From an uncultured Coriobacteriaceae bacterium (GTDB lineage: Bacteria; Actinomycetota; Coriobacteriia; Coriobacteriales; Coriobacteriaceae): 64,000 nucleotides of DNA. The notes beneath the pieces were generated by a model. The model searched no databases and had not been told where the DNA came from. It saw nothing but the letters and a program-made list of their open reading frames with translations. Location: contig CASEER010000001.1 of NCBI GenBank assembly GCA_949287085.1, positions 1 through 64,000 on the forward strand, written 5' to 3'. Below are positions 13,164 to 54,640 of the stretch, piece by piece (the first letter of the stretch is position 1; each line of letters begins with the position of its first letter). Position numbers and translations under genes: made by a program.

Positions 13164-13541
13164 CTAGTTGAGCGCCTCGATGCGCACCGCGCGCGAGAAG
13201 TAGTAGTAGACCGCCACGATTACCAAGTTTATAATCGCCGGCCACACGAATCCGTTGAGGAGCACGTAAACCACCACGGCAACCGCGTTGAGCACGAGCG
13301 TGAGCAGCGTGAGCCCCACGTAGGGCGTTGCGTACGCGCGAGCAGGCCGGTTGGCGGCGCCAATACCCCACACGCCCAAGAACAGGTCGAGCACGCAGGG
13401 AATCACCGAGCAAAGGGCGAGCAGCAACGCCGGCGAGCTATTGGCAAATCCAATGGCCACCGACGACCACCACGCCATGCCCAGGGTCGCAATCACCGAC
13501 ACGAAACTCATGATCTTGAGCATCTTTTGATTCTGAGACAT
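13164..13541 (-). CDS. Four-segment membrane protein of unknown function
   Basis: A 125-residue protein with four hydrophobic segments (about residues 10-30, 38-57, 70-90 and 95-115) and short loops. I do not recognise its family. The start at MSQNQKML (13541) is preceded by GGAAGGGGAA, which is better than the upstream in-frame ATG codons in a basic low-complexity stretch. It is followed by its own terminator and appears to be a single-gene unit. Confidence 0.7.
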   Translation of the reverse strand: MSQNQKMLKIMSFVSVIATLGMAWWSSVAIGFANSSPALLLALCSVIPCVLDLFLGVWGIGAANRPARAYATPYVGLTLLTLVLNAVAVVVYVLLNGFVWPAIINLVIVAVYYYFSRAVRIEALN

Positions 13542-13669
13542 ATCGTTTCCCCTTCCGCGCGGCGCGTGCCCGCGCTGGCCACGTTGGTCACCTTCCCCCA
13601 TGATACCCATCCGCGCGGCACTCGACCATGGCGGCGCGAGCGCCGGGGTGCTGCCGGCAAAACAAATTG

Positions 13670-14817
13670 CTAACGTGTGCTCTCAGCACGCGGAACCGTA
13701 TCGCAGGTTTCCATGTAGCGCTTGAGCAAACGCATGCGGAGCGCTTGCAGCGCCTCGCTATACCGCTCGCAGTGAACGAGGTTCACCGTCTCCAGGGGAT
13801 CTTGCGCCAGATCATACAGCTCATCATCCTCATACAGGCGCATAGTGTATTTGAGATTACCCATGCGAATCATGCAGGCCTTGGTGTGCTCGGGCCCTTC
13901 GCTCTCCTGCGTAGACAACCGGGGCCAGTGCCGCTTGTCCGGCGTGCACCCACGCTCCATGGCCTGCACCTCACCATGAAGTCGACCTCCCTCGCAGATG
14001 ACGCAGTCGCGGTGTGGCACCTCGCGCGCAAGCAACGGAACCAACGACACGCCCAATTGATCCCACGAAAGATGCACCCCCGCAAGTTCTGCGATGGTGG
14101 GAACGATATCCGTCAATTCGCAGAGTTCTGACGAGACACGCGGGGTAACCTCAACACCTTGATGCGGCTTGACAATCAAGGGCACCCGGCACACCGGATC
14201 CTCAAAACAGTTTTGAACCTTTTCGGCAATCGAGTAATCCCCCGTGTAATCACCGTGGTCGCTCCACACCAAAACATCCGTGTCACGCGCCAGGCCCGAA
14301 GCTTCGAGCACGGCCGACAGGCGCCCATAGTAGCTATCAAATTGGCTCACCATGGCAAGGTAGGTGGCGTGCAACTCGTTGAAGCGTTCCTCACCCCAGT
14401 GGCCCAAACGCTGCTTTGAGCGAATAGCCTGCAGCATACTTGCCCGGTTTGCGCATGTTGCAACATCGGGACGACGCGGGGGCAACGCATCCCGATCGAT
14501 GGACGAATACCACGGATCCGCGCACGCATACGGCGGGTGGGGCAAGGCGAGCGTGCAATAGATGAAAAAGGGCTTGCTCTGGTTTGAAGCTGCATACGTT
14601 TTGAGATAGTTGCATACCGCGTCAACGCAGCCCTCATCAACCTGTCGATAAGGGCTGTCCTGTGGAATCTTTCCCACGTAGAAGGAATAGTACGTATCGT
14701 CTTCGTCGTGAATGCGGTCCTCTGGCCCCACCATCTCAGATTCTGGAGAAAAGGGTGCTGGGACGTCCTTGGTATCAAAAGGGCGCACGCCGTCATAATA
14801 GATGTCGCAATAGCGCG
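13670..14817 (-). pseudogene. Sulfatase, N-terminal part missing
   Basis: About 380 codons match the middle and C-terminal parts of an arylsulfatase-type enzyme: CDIYYDGVRPFDTKD, IYCTLALPHPPYACAD, VWSDHGDYTGDYS, VPLIVKP and LYDLAQDPLETVNL. The N-terminal region with the CxPxR or SxPxR formylglycine site is absent, and the frame closes upstream at a TAG beside base 14818. There the sequence switches to an unrelated reading frame, so a deletion has joined two genes. Without the catalytic residue it cannot act as a sulfatase. It probably came from a glycosaminoglycan or mucin-glycan operon, given the PTS remnants beside it. Confidence 0.8.
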
Positions 14818-15012
14818 CCTTTCGCTATTGGCAAACGTATTAAACCAGTGAGCCCCCAAGCCACGAACTGCATCGAGAATCTCACGCAATGCATCGGCTG
14901 AGAAATACTTGAGCTCGTCAGCCTCAAGATGCTCGTCGATGTAGCGCTGCTCTTTATAGCGCTTTGGCGCTACATGAACAGAAACGTCAAACATACGCCC
15001 CATGCGTCTCAC
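14818..15012 (-). pseudogene. 5' fragment of an unidentified gene fused to the sulfatase remnant
   Basis: From an ATG at 15012, four bases past the end of the PTS IIB gene, about 65 codons read MRRMGRMFDVSVHVAP... to GAHWFNTFANSE, then run out of frame into sulfatase sequence. The segment with its alternating strand and helix (REILDAVRGLGAHWFNTF) resembles the start of a TIM-barrel glycosidase, but I cannot name a family. A short inverted repeat, AATAGCG/CGCTATT, sits exactly at the join. It is a decayed remnant. Confidence 0.6.
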
Positions 15013-15015
15013 CCC

Positions 15016-15495
15016 CTACTTCAAATAGTCCTTGAGCATATAGCCTGAATCTTCCGGCACCATGTTGCAGGTAAGCTCAACACCAGCATCCATAAGCCGC
15101 TTAAAGGAAGCCGCTTCCTCGTCAGTCACGCTAATCGACTGCTTGATCTGCGTCGTTCCCGGGCGCTTGGCCAGATTGCCCACGTTCACCGACGTGATGT
15201 CGAGGCCAAGGTCGCGCAAGCGCCCAATGACGAGCGGCGAATTAACCAGGAGGAACACACGCTGACCGCGATACTTTCCCGCCTTAATATTTGTCGCCGC
15301 CTTCTCGACCGAAATGAGCGACGTTGCAACGCCGGCAGAAGCGGCCATGCGGAGCACCTGTTTGCGCATATCGTCGACAGCTACGTCATCATCGGCGACC
15401 ATAATGCGCGTTGCCTGCAGGCGACGCGTCCACATCGCGGCAACCTGTCCGTGAATCAACCGGTCATCAATGCGCACATGAACAATGCCTTCCAT
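15016..15495 (-). CDS. PTS IIB component, mannose/fructose/sorbose family
   Basis: A full-length 159-residue IIB domain with the hallmark VRIDDRLIHGQVAAMW, where His15 is the phosphorylated residue, and later LLVNSPLVIGRLRDLG and VNVGNLAKRPG. It would pass phosphate to a sugar imported by IIC/IID. TAGGAG six bases upstream supports the start. It is the only intact-looking gene in the locus: IIC and IID are fused remnants just upstream, and no IIA is present. It is therefore probably non-functional for transport unless it pairs with components elsewhere. Confidence 0.9.
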   Translation of the reverse strand: MEGIVHVRIDDRLIHGQVAAMWTRRLQATRIMVADDDVAVDDMRKQVLRMAASAGVATSLISVEKAATNIKAGKYRGQRVFLLVNSPLVIGRLRDLGLDITSVNVGNLAKRPGTTQIKQSISVTDEEAASFKRLMDAGVELTCNMVPEDSGYMLKDYLK

Positions 15496-15504
15496 GGCAA
15501 ACTC

Positions 15505-15930
15505 CTAACCGAGCAGGTGCAGGTTGTACAGGACAATGGCGAGCACGACTACCAAGATGATGAGACGCGTGGAGTTCATGTTCTTGCGGCCCAGCATCCA
15601 ATAGGAGAACGCTACGAGCAGCACCGGAATAAGGCCCGGCATAATCTGGTTCAAGAAGTCCTGAACCACAATGTCAACGTCGCCCGTCGTCCACGTGAGC
15701 GGAACCGTCGCGGTAATCGTCGACGGAATGAGGGCACCAATGACCGTCATGCCCATCATGACCGTAGCGTCGGTGATGAGCTTGAGCTTGTTGCCCAGCT
15801 TGCCCACAATCTGCTGGCCAAATTCGTAGCCCAGGAACATGAATAGGCCCGTCGTCATGTCACCCATAACAATGCCGGCAAGCAAACCCGTCACCACGGG
15901 CTTGTTCAAATTGAAATAGGTAAACGTCTG
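15505..15930 (-). pseudogene. Fused remnants of PTS IIC and IID
   Basis: About 25 codons of a mannose-family IIC (NLNKPVVTGLLAGIVMGDM, the usual first-helix motif) continue in frame, near base 15846, into the C-terminal quarter of a IID protein. The IID part has a KLITDATVMMGMTVIGAL helix, a QDFLNQIMPGLIPVLL helix and a final ILVVVLAIVLYNLHLLG helix. Most of IIC and the first two thirds of IID are missing. Its upstream end is joined, out of frame, to the RpiR remnant near 15917-15930, so it has no convincing start. It is a deletion product. Confidence 0.8.
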
Positions 15931-16465
15931 CAGAACGGGCAACCCGTGCGCCAAGCTCCATGGTTTCAAGGTCTTCGATGCAAATCACGGTGAGACCGAA
16001 TTTCATGAGCTTGCTTGCCAAGTCCTGTGCCGGGAAAAACGATGCGCCTTTGCCGCAGATAAAAATGCGCTCAGCGTGCTCGAGTAGATCGATAGCCTGA
16101 AGAACAGCGTTTTGATCGAGGTTTTCGTATGTTTGACGAAGTGACGCAATGGTTTCCTGATAGATGGCGCCAATCACATCGTTGATGGGACTCGCAAGCG
16201 TTACGTCCCCGCCCGGGCTTTTAACCTGCCGGTTCAAACGCATGCGCTCCTCGTACAGCTTCATTTTGAACTCAACGAAGCCGCAGGAAGCAACCTTTTG
16301 AACAAACTTGATGACGGTCGATTGGCTTACCCCTATATGTCGAGCGGCCTCGGCAGAGCTCATCTGACCAAGCTCGTCCCCACAATTCAGAAAAAACGAG
16401 GCAATCTTGCGCTCCGTCTCGGTGAACGTGGCGTCGCGCTTTGAAATCTCCGCTCGAATGCCCAT
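15860..16465 (-). pseudogene. RpiR-family regulator, truncated in its SIS domain
   Basis: The N-terminal RpiR helix-turn-helix (ARHIGVSQSTVIKFVQKV) and the first part of the SIS sugar-binding domain (RIFICGKGASFFPAQDLASKLMKFG) are intact. After about residue 185 the reading frame enters PTS IIC DNA in another frame and stops at 15860. RpiR proteins bind phosphosugars and control linked PTS operons; the missing SIS half should abolish ligand sensing. The start at 16465 is set by GGGGAGG five bases upstream. A cre-like site lies about 100 bases upstream. Confidence 0.8.
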
Positions 16466-16565
16466 AGAGCCTCCCCATGTATAACTCACAGAAGTGCACA
16501 GCTTCCGCGCGCATAGGAATTTTTAATTCCTTCAAGGCGATTACCCCAGACGTTACAAAAATGGG

Positions 16566-16579
16566 CGTAAGCGGTTACA
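16566..16579 (-). promoter_or_regulatory. Candidate cre (catabolite) site
   Basis: On the minus strand the sequence TGTAACCGCTTACG matches the CcpA/cre consensus TGNAANCGNTNNCA at all but the last base. It lies about 100 bases ahead of the RpiR start, in the 324-base gap before larC, where carbon-catabolite control of a PTS operon would be expected. No CcpA gene is in this window, so the call is tentative. Confidence 0.4.
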
Positions 16580-16673
16580 GAGCGAGAACGACGGCTTTAC
16601 ATTCCCCATACATTGAGCAACGGCATCACATGGCTCGCCTTGCTGCCCAACCAGCCCAGAGAGCAACCTCATG

Positions 16674-16703
16674 AAAAAAAGCCCCAGCTCGCAAGCCAGG
16701 GCT
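16674..16703 (-). terminator. Terminator of the larBC unit
   Basis: On the minus strand a stem GCCCUGGC/GCUGGGGC (with two G-U pairs) is followed by seven T's, about 85 bases after the larC stop. It is a good Rho-independent terminator. The rest of the gap up to 16466 holds only the RpiR upstream region. Confidence 0.75.
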
Positions 16704-16789
16704 TCGATGGCAGAGAGCAAGGGCGCCGGAACGCAGCGACGAGCAGGGGCACCGAGACGCGGCGAGCAAGAGAGCAGACGCCCCGCGAG

Positions 16790-18238
16790 CTAGATCGCAG
16801 CCATCACGGTTTGGAGCGGGACGTGAGCACGGCGGGCGAGAGTGGCGGCATCCTCGTATTCGGGAGTGGTGCGCGTGGAGCCGTCGGGAAGGGTGACGGT
16901 CTTGGTGCGCACGGGGCCCCAGGGAGTCTGCACCGTTCCCGTCGTGCGGGCAAGCACCGTGCGCTCGCAGGTCCAGCGTCGTATGCCGATGGTCGTGGTC
17001 TCGGCAAAGATAACGGCCTCCAGACGCTCAACGTCTTCGGGGAGTGCGATGACCTGGAGCTGCCAAGCCGGACGGCCCTTTTTGGAAAAAATCGGCGTCC
17101 AGTGGACCTCGCGCGCGCCCGCCGCGCGCAGCTGCTCGGCAGCGTAGGCAAGCACCTCGCCCGACGCGTCATCGATGTCGCATTCAAGCCGCACGATGGG
17201 ACCGGGATGAGCGTCATCGATGGTGGGAGCGGGGACGTTGGCAGCCGGCGCGACGGCACCGGCAATCTGAGCGGGGACGTTGTCGGCAGGCGTGGATGCG
17301 ACGGCCGGGGCGGCAGCACCAGGCAGCGGGGTTCCCGAGGGCGCCGCGTTCTGCTGCATGGTCTCCGCTAGCGCTTGAGGGGCGCGCGCGTCCTGCGCGG
17401 GCAGCTCCTCGATGATGAGCGCCCGCACTATGCTCGGCCGATCGTACGTGCGCTTACCGGCACCCAGGCCGCAGCGCAGCACGCGAAAACGATCCGGCAA
17501 CTCAAACTCAGCATGGAGCGCTGCAACGACAGCGGCCCCGGTGGGCGTCACGAGCTCGCCCTCGGTGTCGCACACGGAGAGCGGCAGGCCGTGTTGCTCG
17601 ACGATGTTCATAGTGGCCGGCACCGGCACAGGGATGACGCCATGCTGGCAGCGGATGGTGCCGTGGCCGTCAACGAGGCGCGGCACGATCACGCGGTCGA
17701 CGCCCAGATCGTCCACGAGCACGGCGACCGACACGATATCCACGATGGAATCGACCGCGCCCACCTCATGAAAACGCACCGCGTCGAGCGGCACGCCATG
17801 GGCCTTGGCCTCGGCGTGGGCGAGCACGTCAACCATGCGATGGGCGAGCGCGCGGGCACCGGGCGCAAGGCTACCGGCGTCGATGATGGCATCGAGGTCC
17901 GCCGGGGCGCGATGCTCGTGATGATGGCAGGCGTGATCATGATGGTGAGCGCGATGATGGCCCGGCTCGTGCGCGTGCGCGTCCGTCGCATCGTGCCCAT
18001 GGAGATAGGCCATGTCGTGGTCGTGGTTCTCGTGCGCCGCATCGAGCACCACGTCAAAGTCGCAGCAATCGAGCCCCGCTTTGCGCACCCGACCAATGCG
18101 CAGCTCGTAGCCTGCAACCGGCAGGCTTGCAAGCGCCGCGCGCAGCCGCTCCTCGCTCGCGCCCGCGTCAAGCAGCGCCGCGGCCGTCATATCTCCGCTG
18201 ATACCGCACGTGCAGTCGAGGTACAGCGCTGTTCCCAT
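16790..18238 (-). CDS. larC: LarC, nickel insertion for the nickel-pincer cofactor
   Basis: A 482-residue LarC protein, the CTP-dependent cyclometallase that puts nickel into the pincer nucleotide of lactate racemase-type enzymes. It opens LYLDCTCGISGDM and has the FHEVGAVDSIVDI and PTGAAVVAAL segments and a C-terminal domain with RLECDIDDASGEVLAYA. In Lactobacillus the two halves are joined by a programmed frameshift; here a single frame covers both, with an Ala/Pro-rich linker near residues 285-345. Residues 69-109 hold 17 histidines, a likely nickel-holding loop. AAGGAGGATC precedes the start. It lies 68 bases downstream of larB. Confidence 0.93.
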   Translation of the reverse strand: MGTALYLDCTCGISGDMTAAALLDAGASEERLRAALASLPVAGYELRIGRVRKAGLDCCDFDVVLDAAHENHDHDMAYLHGHDATDAHAHEPGHHRAHHHDHACHHHEHRAPADLDAIIDAGSLAPGARALAHRMVDVLAHAEAKAHGVPLDAVRFHEVGAVDSIVDIVSVAVLVDDLGVDRVIVPRLVDGHGTIRCQHGVIPVPVPATMNIVEQHGLPLSVCDTEGELVTPTGAAVVAALHAEFELPDRFRVLRCGLGAGKRTYDRPSIVRALIIEELPAQDARAPQALAETMQQNAAPSGTPLPGAAAPAVASTPADNVPAQIAGAVAPAANVPAPTIDDAHPGPIVRLECDIDDASGEVLAYAAEQLRAAGAREVHWTPIFSKKGRPAWQLQVIALPEDVERLEAVIFAETTTIGIRRWTCERTVLARTTGTVQTPWGPVRTKTVTLPDGSTRTTPEYEDAATLARRAHVPLQTVMAAI

Positions 18239-52899: not shown

Positions 52900-52933
52900 T
52901 ATGCCCTCCTCTCCCCTACCGAGTGGCTATTAA

Positions 52934-53414
52934 TTATATGATGTTATCCGAATCTTCCTGCAATATTCTGCCGTATTCAAAAACTGCTCCCAGGGCAAAG
53001 AAAAGAACTGTCAGCGACAACATGGACAGGTCCACGGTTGGGCCCGAACTGAGCACATGCCCTAACGCCTTAGCGGGCCCTCGAACCCCAATAGTCGGAA
53101 GAAAGAAACCCATGATAAATCGAAGGAAGAAAATAGCCGCAATCACGAAAAACTTGTAAGACTGACGCCTAGAAAAAACCTCCGACCGAACTCGCACCAG
53201 ATGAACAAACCTAGCAACTATTGCCCAAATAGCTCCATTAAAAAATCGAGTTGGCACAATTAATCGTTAGAAACAGTCGACTTGATTCGGTTGCATCGCC
53301 ATCGAATATGCCAAATAAAAAGCGGAATCCCAAAATAATGGAAAGACACGACATCAGACAAAAGAATACCGTAATGAAGAGTAAAGAACCCTTCAAGGCC
53401 TTTTGTTTCTCCAT
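52934..53414 (-). pseudogene. DUF2975-like membrane protein, frameshift at a T run
   Basis: ATG at 53414 (GGAGG upstream) opens MEKQKALKGSLLFITVF and runs through two membrane segments to ANSIF, where a stop is met beside six T's. Shifting by one base at that run restores NGAIWAIVARFV and the remaining 100 residues with two more membrane segments. The joined protein of about 159 residues has the four-segment DUF2975-like pattern and the XRE gene next to it. The break sits in a homopolymer, so it could be a mutation, reversible slippage or a sequencing error. Confidence 0.65.
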
Positions 53415-53530
53415 GTTCCTCCAATACGACATGCGTATTTGCTGCGCTATACACCGATTCTAATACCACCGAAATCCAAGCAAGCGCCAACTTGTTCGCT
53501 AGAAATGATGAACAGCATACGAGACCCCAA

Positions 53531-54235
53531 TCAATTCGTCATGGTAATCAAAGTTTTAATTCTCTGATGTATCGCTTCCCTGTTGTACGCACAGTATGGG
53601 TCGCGACAATCTGCGCGGCCGTATTCTAAATACGCTCGTGCCCTGCAACCACCTCCACATAGATAGCGTTTGCCACAGTCCTTGCAGCCGTAAATATCGT
53701 CAACAGTAGGCAAAGCAAAGCGAAAGAGCGCATCACGCAGCACGTCGGCCGAATCCTCAAAGGCATTACCCAAACAGAACTGCGAATAATGCAGCATATG
53801 GCAGGCGTACGCCGCGCCATCGGCAGCGATGCTCACGCCCACACGCCCCGCACCGCAACAGGCGCACGCACGGAGCGTTGCGCGCGCACCATCAGGGAAG
53901 ACATTATCGATGCCTGCTGTTGTCCCCGCTGCCTGCATGACCTCGGCAAGATGAATAAGGTCGTCATCATGGAGATAGGCAGAGTGGAGCCGCACCCGAT
54001 TGGGGAACGCAGCGCCCTCGCCTGTCTCATCTTCAATAAAGCCATGCCGCTTCATGTAAGCAACAAGCTCAAAACAGTCCGCAGGCACGTCTACCTCGGG
54101 AACGTCGTGCTCCGCCATAGCATCACACAGCGCCGCCCCACTGATAGTCAGCCCGATGATGGTGCCTGTTTCAACGTTCCCGATCGCAGGCACCTTGCCA
54201 AGCTCAACCCTTACGCTACTTTTTGCCAGTCTCAT
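53531..54235 (-). pseudogene. Radical SAM/SPASM protein lacking its SAM core
   Basis: Of 234 residues, 1-70 resemble the N-terminal peptide-binding part of radical-SAM peptide maturases (GTIIGLTISGAALCDAMAE). Residues 80-234 are the end of the barrel and a SPASM domain with its cysteines: ACACCGAGRVGVSIAADGAAYACHML, GCKDCGKRYLCGGGCRARAY, CAYNREAI. The CxxxCxxC segment that binds the SAM iron-sulfur cluster is missing: the two parts meet in frame near base 54020. It is therefore probably a deletion product. No strong ribosome site was found at 54235. Confidence 0.65.
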
Positions 54236-54354
54236 AATTAAGACTTTCTATTCAGCAACTATATAATATATTTTATTATTAATATTATAGAATCGCAACG
54301 ATACGGACACGACCAATATTTGTCCTCCTTGACCATGGAAAGGACACCGTAACC

Positions 54355-54595
54355 TTGAAGTATTTAAAACGTCATAAAAAACCACTTGTTATTCTGTGCG
54401 TCCTCGCACTATGCGCAGCGGGCATCGCCGTTTTTTGTTGGAATTCTATGCGGCAGGCTAACCTATGCGGCAGGCTAACCTATGCGGCAGGCTAACGACC
54501 TCGTGGGAACAACAGTAGGGGGCTGGGAAGATGCCATGCACTATTCCAGTGGATGCAGATTCAATTGCCTATTCAGAGCAGTAAGACCTGCCTAG
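54355..54595 (+). pseudogene. Small membrane-anchored peptide gene interrupted by tandem repeats
   Basis: A TTG at 54355, ten bases after AAGGA, opens KYLKRHKKPLVILCVLALC, a positively charged start and membrane helix. Three perfect 17-bp units (54446-54496) follow and cause a stop at 54495 after 46 residues. With one unit instead of three the frame would continue to 54595, giving about 68 residues ending in GWEDAMHYSSGCRF and FRAVRPA. Because 17 is not a multiple of three, changes in unit number switch the frame. Function unknown; divergent from the SPASM protein. Confidence 0.5.
54446..54496 (+). repeat. Three perfect 17-bp tandem repeats
   Basis: Units 54446-54462, 54463-54479 and 54480-54496 are each CTATGCGGCAGGCTAAC, without mismatches. 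They lie inside the small peptide reading frame just after its membrane helix. Perfect identity points to recent duplication by strand slippage. Confidence 0.95.
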
Positions 54596-54615
54596 GCGCT
54601 CAAAAGCCTAGGCAG
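54588..54615 (-). terminator. Hairpin after prfB
   Basis: A perfect 10-bp stem, CTGCCTAGGC (54588-54597) with GCCTAGGCAG (54606-54615), lies 26 bases past the prfB stop. No T-run follows on either strand, so it is a weak terminator candidate or a 3' stabiliser. It overlaps the tail of the small peptide frame. Confidence 0.45.
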
Positions 54616-54640
54616 CGTTACTATTGTCCCACCTGGTGGA

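Follow-up and report, generated by a model that had tools for sequence, protein, structure and literature searches.

The 64-kb window analysed here, a stretch of 64,000 nucleotides from the genome of an uncultured Coriobacteriaceae bacterium (a gut-type actinobacterium), contains a pseudogene cluster that is very probably a horizontally acquired PTS-sulfatase operon decaying by deletion. The cluster is on the minus strand (13670–16489) and comprises the start of an RpiR-family regulator gene, a 154-aa ORF, a complete IIB gene, a short ORF (gene X), and a sulfatase ORF. With the exception of IIB, every recognised gene is partial by Pfam comparison, and NCBIfam concurs. The frames in the remnant are all open and contain no stop codons, so the decay would be young.

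Gene pieces of the remnant

The regulator remnant (15921–16489, minus strand, as are all of the pieces) belongs to the RpiR/MurR family and has an HTH and the start of an SIS domain, with its C-terminal third missing. The ORF that contains it (15860–16489) matches the RpiR HTH (HTH_6) and only positions 2–34 of the 131 in the Pfam SIS profile; no complete SIS domain lies beside the HTH, and the regulator is without most of its sugar-sensing domain. The 154-aa ORF (15505–15969) matches two PTS membrane subunits in a single frame, EII-Sor positions 20–47 followed by EIID-AGA positions 149–265 (Pfam). The first of these is a IIC fragment of about 28 residues (15838–15927; the profile has 233 positions) from which about 20 residues on the N-terminal side and some 200 on the C-terminal side are gone, and the second is the C-terminal 115 residues of IID (15505–15846; the profile ends at 265), which has lost roughly its first 150–170 residues. 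Neither membrane subunit of a mannose/sorbose-family transporter is therefore full length. The sorbose/mannose-family IIB (15016–15495) is complete, matching PTSIIB_sorb positions 1–147 of 148 and carrying the phosphorylatable His in the motif RIDDRLIHGQV.

The start of gene X (14825–15003, about 59 residues) has no match in Pfam or NCBIfam, and no relatives among 67 genomes of the family, 398 genomes of the class, and 44 sulfatase-carrying genomes. The sulfatase remnant (13670–14824) is without its N-terminal ~110–130 residues and the CVPSR motif, and its ORF (13670–14788) begins at position 139 of the Pfam Sulfatase profile. Its relatives have 109–134 extra residues ahead of this point, PVCVPSR included, and this extra segment matches profile positions 1–122. 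The C/S-x-P-S-R catalytic motif that Sulfatase (PF00884) proteins have in their N-terminal part is thus absent, as the remnant begins downstream of it. Judging from their families, the regulator, IIC, IID and sulfatase remnants are predicted to be non-functional in their usual roles, and with these losses in IIC and IID, the catalytic cysteine motif and the sensor domain, the locus can no longer serve its earlier function.

The three joins

The original prediction described three half-gene junctions, a retained glycan-PTS gene order and a whole IIB gene between junctions. All of this holds; alignment to relatives, by which we located the joins, and Pfam matches place them within a few bases of the predicted coordinates. 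At join 1 (RpiR to IIC), RpiR relatives align through ...ARSADVYLF and IIC relatives from about Q-T-F-T-Y-F, and the sequence CAGACGTTTACCTATTT is common to both reading frames and fits both families, which places the join within 15908–15934. At join 2, which fuses IIC to IID in frame, similarity to IIC relatives extends as far as T-G-L-F-M/I and similarity to IID relatives starts at about (L)-F-M-F-x-G-Y; these limits place the join within 15829–15846, where the LFM codons (about 6–9 nt) fit both parents. Sulfatase relatives align from about K-A-x-Y-C-D-x-Y-Y-D-G, which places join 3 (X to sulfatase) within 14807–14832. The AATAGCG/CGCTATT repeat originally noted at 14818 is real and is part of a perfect 8-bp inverted repeat that straddles join 3, CAATAGCG (14808–14815) and CGCTATTG (14823–14830), with a 7-nt spacer and one arm from each side; about a dozen comparable inverted repeats (8-bp arms, loop of 3–10) are present in the 64 kb. 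A 12-bp direct repeat, GCTATTGGCAAA (at 13437 and 14824), was considered and set aside, since roughly estimated it is about as frequent as expected by chance in 3.8 kb.

The zones at joins 1 and 2 that fit both parent families are 6–17 nt long, and are derived from protein alignments rather than from parental DNA. They are compatible with deletion at short homologies, which falls short of proof. The proposal of recombination at short repeats is supported to the extent that the joins could accommodate such homology.

The three joins fall within 1.2 kb, with only about 80 bp between joins 1 and 2. We infer that the three deletions were separate events, with the proviso that joins 1 and 2 could be products of one complex event. 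The closeness of these two joins would also suit a single complex rearrangement in place of three deletions, but this seems unlikely, since the pieces have the order and orientation expected of a normal operon and simple deletions suffice.

Genomic setting and intact relatives

Alignment to a congener (G004) and the G+C content define an accessory insert at 13610–16790, with 55% G+C compared to 64% elsewhere in the window. G004 is collinear over all 64 kb and has an empty site, window coordinates 13609 and 16801 corresponding to G004 coordinates 13285 and 13298; it thus offers no intact orthologue at this position. The flanks of the insert are larC and a conserved small gene (13164–13541) that are almost adjacent in G004, and the segment, being also low in G+C, is therefore acquired cargo inserted at this point. 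In relatives within the family, larC and a YfcE-like phosphodiesterase gene adjoin each other.

The cargo of the larC–yfcE interval differs by genome: the interval is almost empty in G002 and G004, has the PTS-sulfatase remnant in G000, and in the congener G003 (L104, G003:C25:12000-25500) is filled by 8.5 kb that include a beta-glucosidase-like gene and a LacI-like one. This syntenic G003 site was considered as an intact version of the operon and rejected, its 8.5 kb being other cargo with no match to the pieces in the window. We also note that larC and larB are adjacent in the window and in G004 are parted by a ~14-kb cluster (L160/L159, G004:C2, about 639000–653000) containing a LacI-type regulator and transporter-like genes.

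The closest IIB genes found (58–60% identical) are in two genomes of another family of the order (G157 and G193), and the closest sulfatases (~50–55% identical) are from Coriobacteriia and Firmicutes, some of them adjoining an RpiR gene and a PTS permease. In G157 and G193, the sorbose/mannose-family PTS operons share the IIC, IID, IIB order, although their subunits are all full length, unlike those of the window; no relative of X or the sulfatase was found in the 18-kb stretches examined in these two genomes. The RpiR-PTS-sulfatase operons of Coriobacteriia and Firmicutes (such as L074 and L048) similarly combine an RpiR gene and a PTS permease with a sulfatase about 50% identical to that of the window, but their sulfatases are full length. 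Moreover, the permease beside the sulfatase in L074, L075 and L048 looks by eye, from its N-terminus, to be of another PTS type, whereas that of the window is of the mannose/sorbose family and is broken. An intact copy of the operon was not found by a DNA search of 60 relatives or by a sulfatase search of genome contigs, the best IIB being 60% identical.

Elsewhere in the genome to which the window belongs there are six further genes for IIC and six for IID, all of them full length and separate, and this is also true of IIC and IID in the relatives with the nearest IIB; the 154-aa ORF is therefore no normal fusion. None of these IIC and IID genes in the genome is an orphan carrying the missing pieces, and no orphan sulfatase N-terminus is present among its seven sulfatase-family matches. 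The remnant thus consists of truncated genes whose relatives elsewhere are intact, and it lies between intact conserved genes. When the genes of the window were compared one by one with those of G004, virtually all the conserved ones that the two share (~50) proved full length, the few flagged rows being attributable to stretch ends, paralogous matches, a divergent stretch, and masked bases in G004 itself.

Probable erosion of accessory loci

The exception among the genes shared with G004 is a second low-G+C accessory locus (52900–54640). It contains a decayed radical-SAM/SPASM gene (53531–54247, minus strand) with a 181-codon in-frame internal deletion near 53963–53969: the protein is about 417 aa long in G004 and 234 aa in the window, where residue 91 is joined in frame to residue 273 and 543 bp are gone. 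The deletion removes the whole radical-SAM domain (92–246) and spares only SPASM. Strictly, the comparison shows a difference between the two genomes; that the loss is on the side of the window follows from the radical-SAM core being an ancient domain that is complete in the G004 gene. The frame of a neighbouring membrane-protein gene (DUF2975-like) is interrupted, and two further genes of the G004 cluster gave no match at this locus. A short tandem repeat, ATGCGGCAGGCTAACCT, is present in about three copies at 54445–54500 within the eroded locus. The damaged places in the window are these two low-G+C accessory loci, and the deletions hit dispensable genes only.

Assembly collapse had been regarded as the simpler explanation of the joins. 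What counts against decay is that the losses are deduced from gene families and that the genome is a fragmented and incomplete draft (35 contigs, 76% complete) in which the joins are known from assembled sequence alone; three joins in 1.2 kb is also a dense arrangement. However, that they are assembly or chimeric-read artefacts in an organism with an intact operon is quite improbable. Assemblers need overlaps of k-mer length, and matches shorter than about 17 nt are too small for them to bridge without reads; the joins spare ~59 kb of conserved DNA, and the chance that random placement would put all three into this 3.2 kb is about 1e-4 (calculated post hoc as (3.18/64)^3); no other part of the genome contains the segments lost from IIC, IID and the sulfatase; and a similar loss is seen at the second accessory locus.

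The original prediction also held that repeated loss of inner gene segments is not ordinary decay, a view that is not supported by what is known of bacterial pseudogenes, in which deletion is the dominant mutation and deletional bias erodes superfluous genes (PMC2916853). Among Salmonella pseudogenes, short deletions are the commonest single inactivating mutation and larger deletions are likely the main route of pseudogene removal (PMC2916853), and growing Salmonella acquires spontaneous small deletions with junction microhomologies of 8 bp or more (PMC3411829). The window resembles such erosion in that dispensable genes lose inner segments as conserved neighbours stay whole, with a similar internal deletion at the second locus, but differs in that several joins are crowded into a single operon and most of the losses take more than 20% of a gene, a larger share than in the young pseudogenes of Salmonella (PMC2916853). 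The inverted repeat at join 3, and the fact that the joins of IIC/IID and of the radical-SAM gene are in frame, would also match a hairpin-guided or active deletion process in this lineage that favours the gene interiors of acquired loci, which we consider very doubtful. A working, streamlined system built from the fused proteins (a regulator fragment, a mini membrane protein and IIB, for example) is scarcely credible in spite of the open frames, the in-frame IIC/IID join and the intact IIB, since IIC is without its transport core, the sulfatase is without its catalytic motif, and IIC and IID are separate and full length in the places examined.

On the most probable reading, a mannose/sorbose-family PTS operon that included a sulfatase and was controlled by RpiR, and that probably served a sulfated host glycan, arrived by horizontal transfer and came to lie between larC and the conserved gene next to it. 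Having lost its function, it has been shrinking through at least three deletions, which at joins 1, 2 and 3 fused the inside of one gene to that of another, likely by slippage or illegitimate recombination at short repeats and possibly aided by a hairpin at join 3; IIB is whole merely because deletion has not yet reached it. The locus is a further example of known deletional erosion and gives no indication of a new system, although it is somewhat striking for the density of its joins. It provides a clear and well-bounded case of an acquired glycan-use operon eroding by deletion in Coriobacteriia, and a caution that in-frame joins of half-genes can mimic new fusion proteins in draft genomes.
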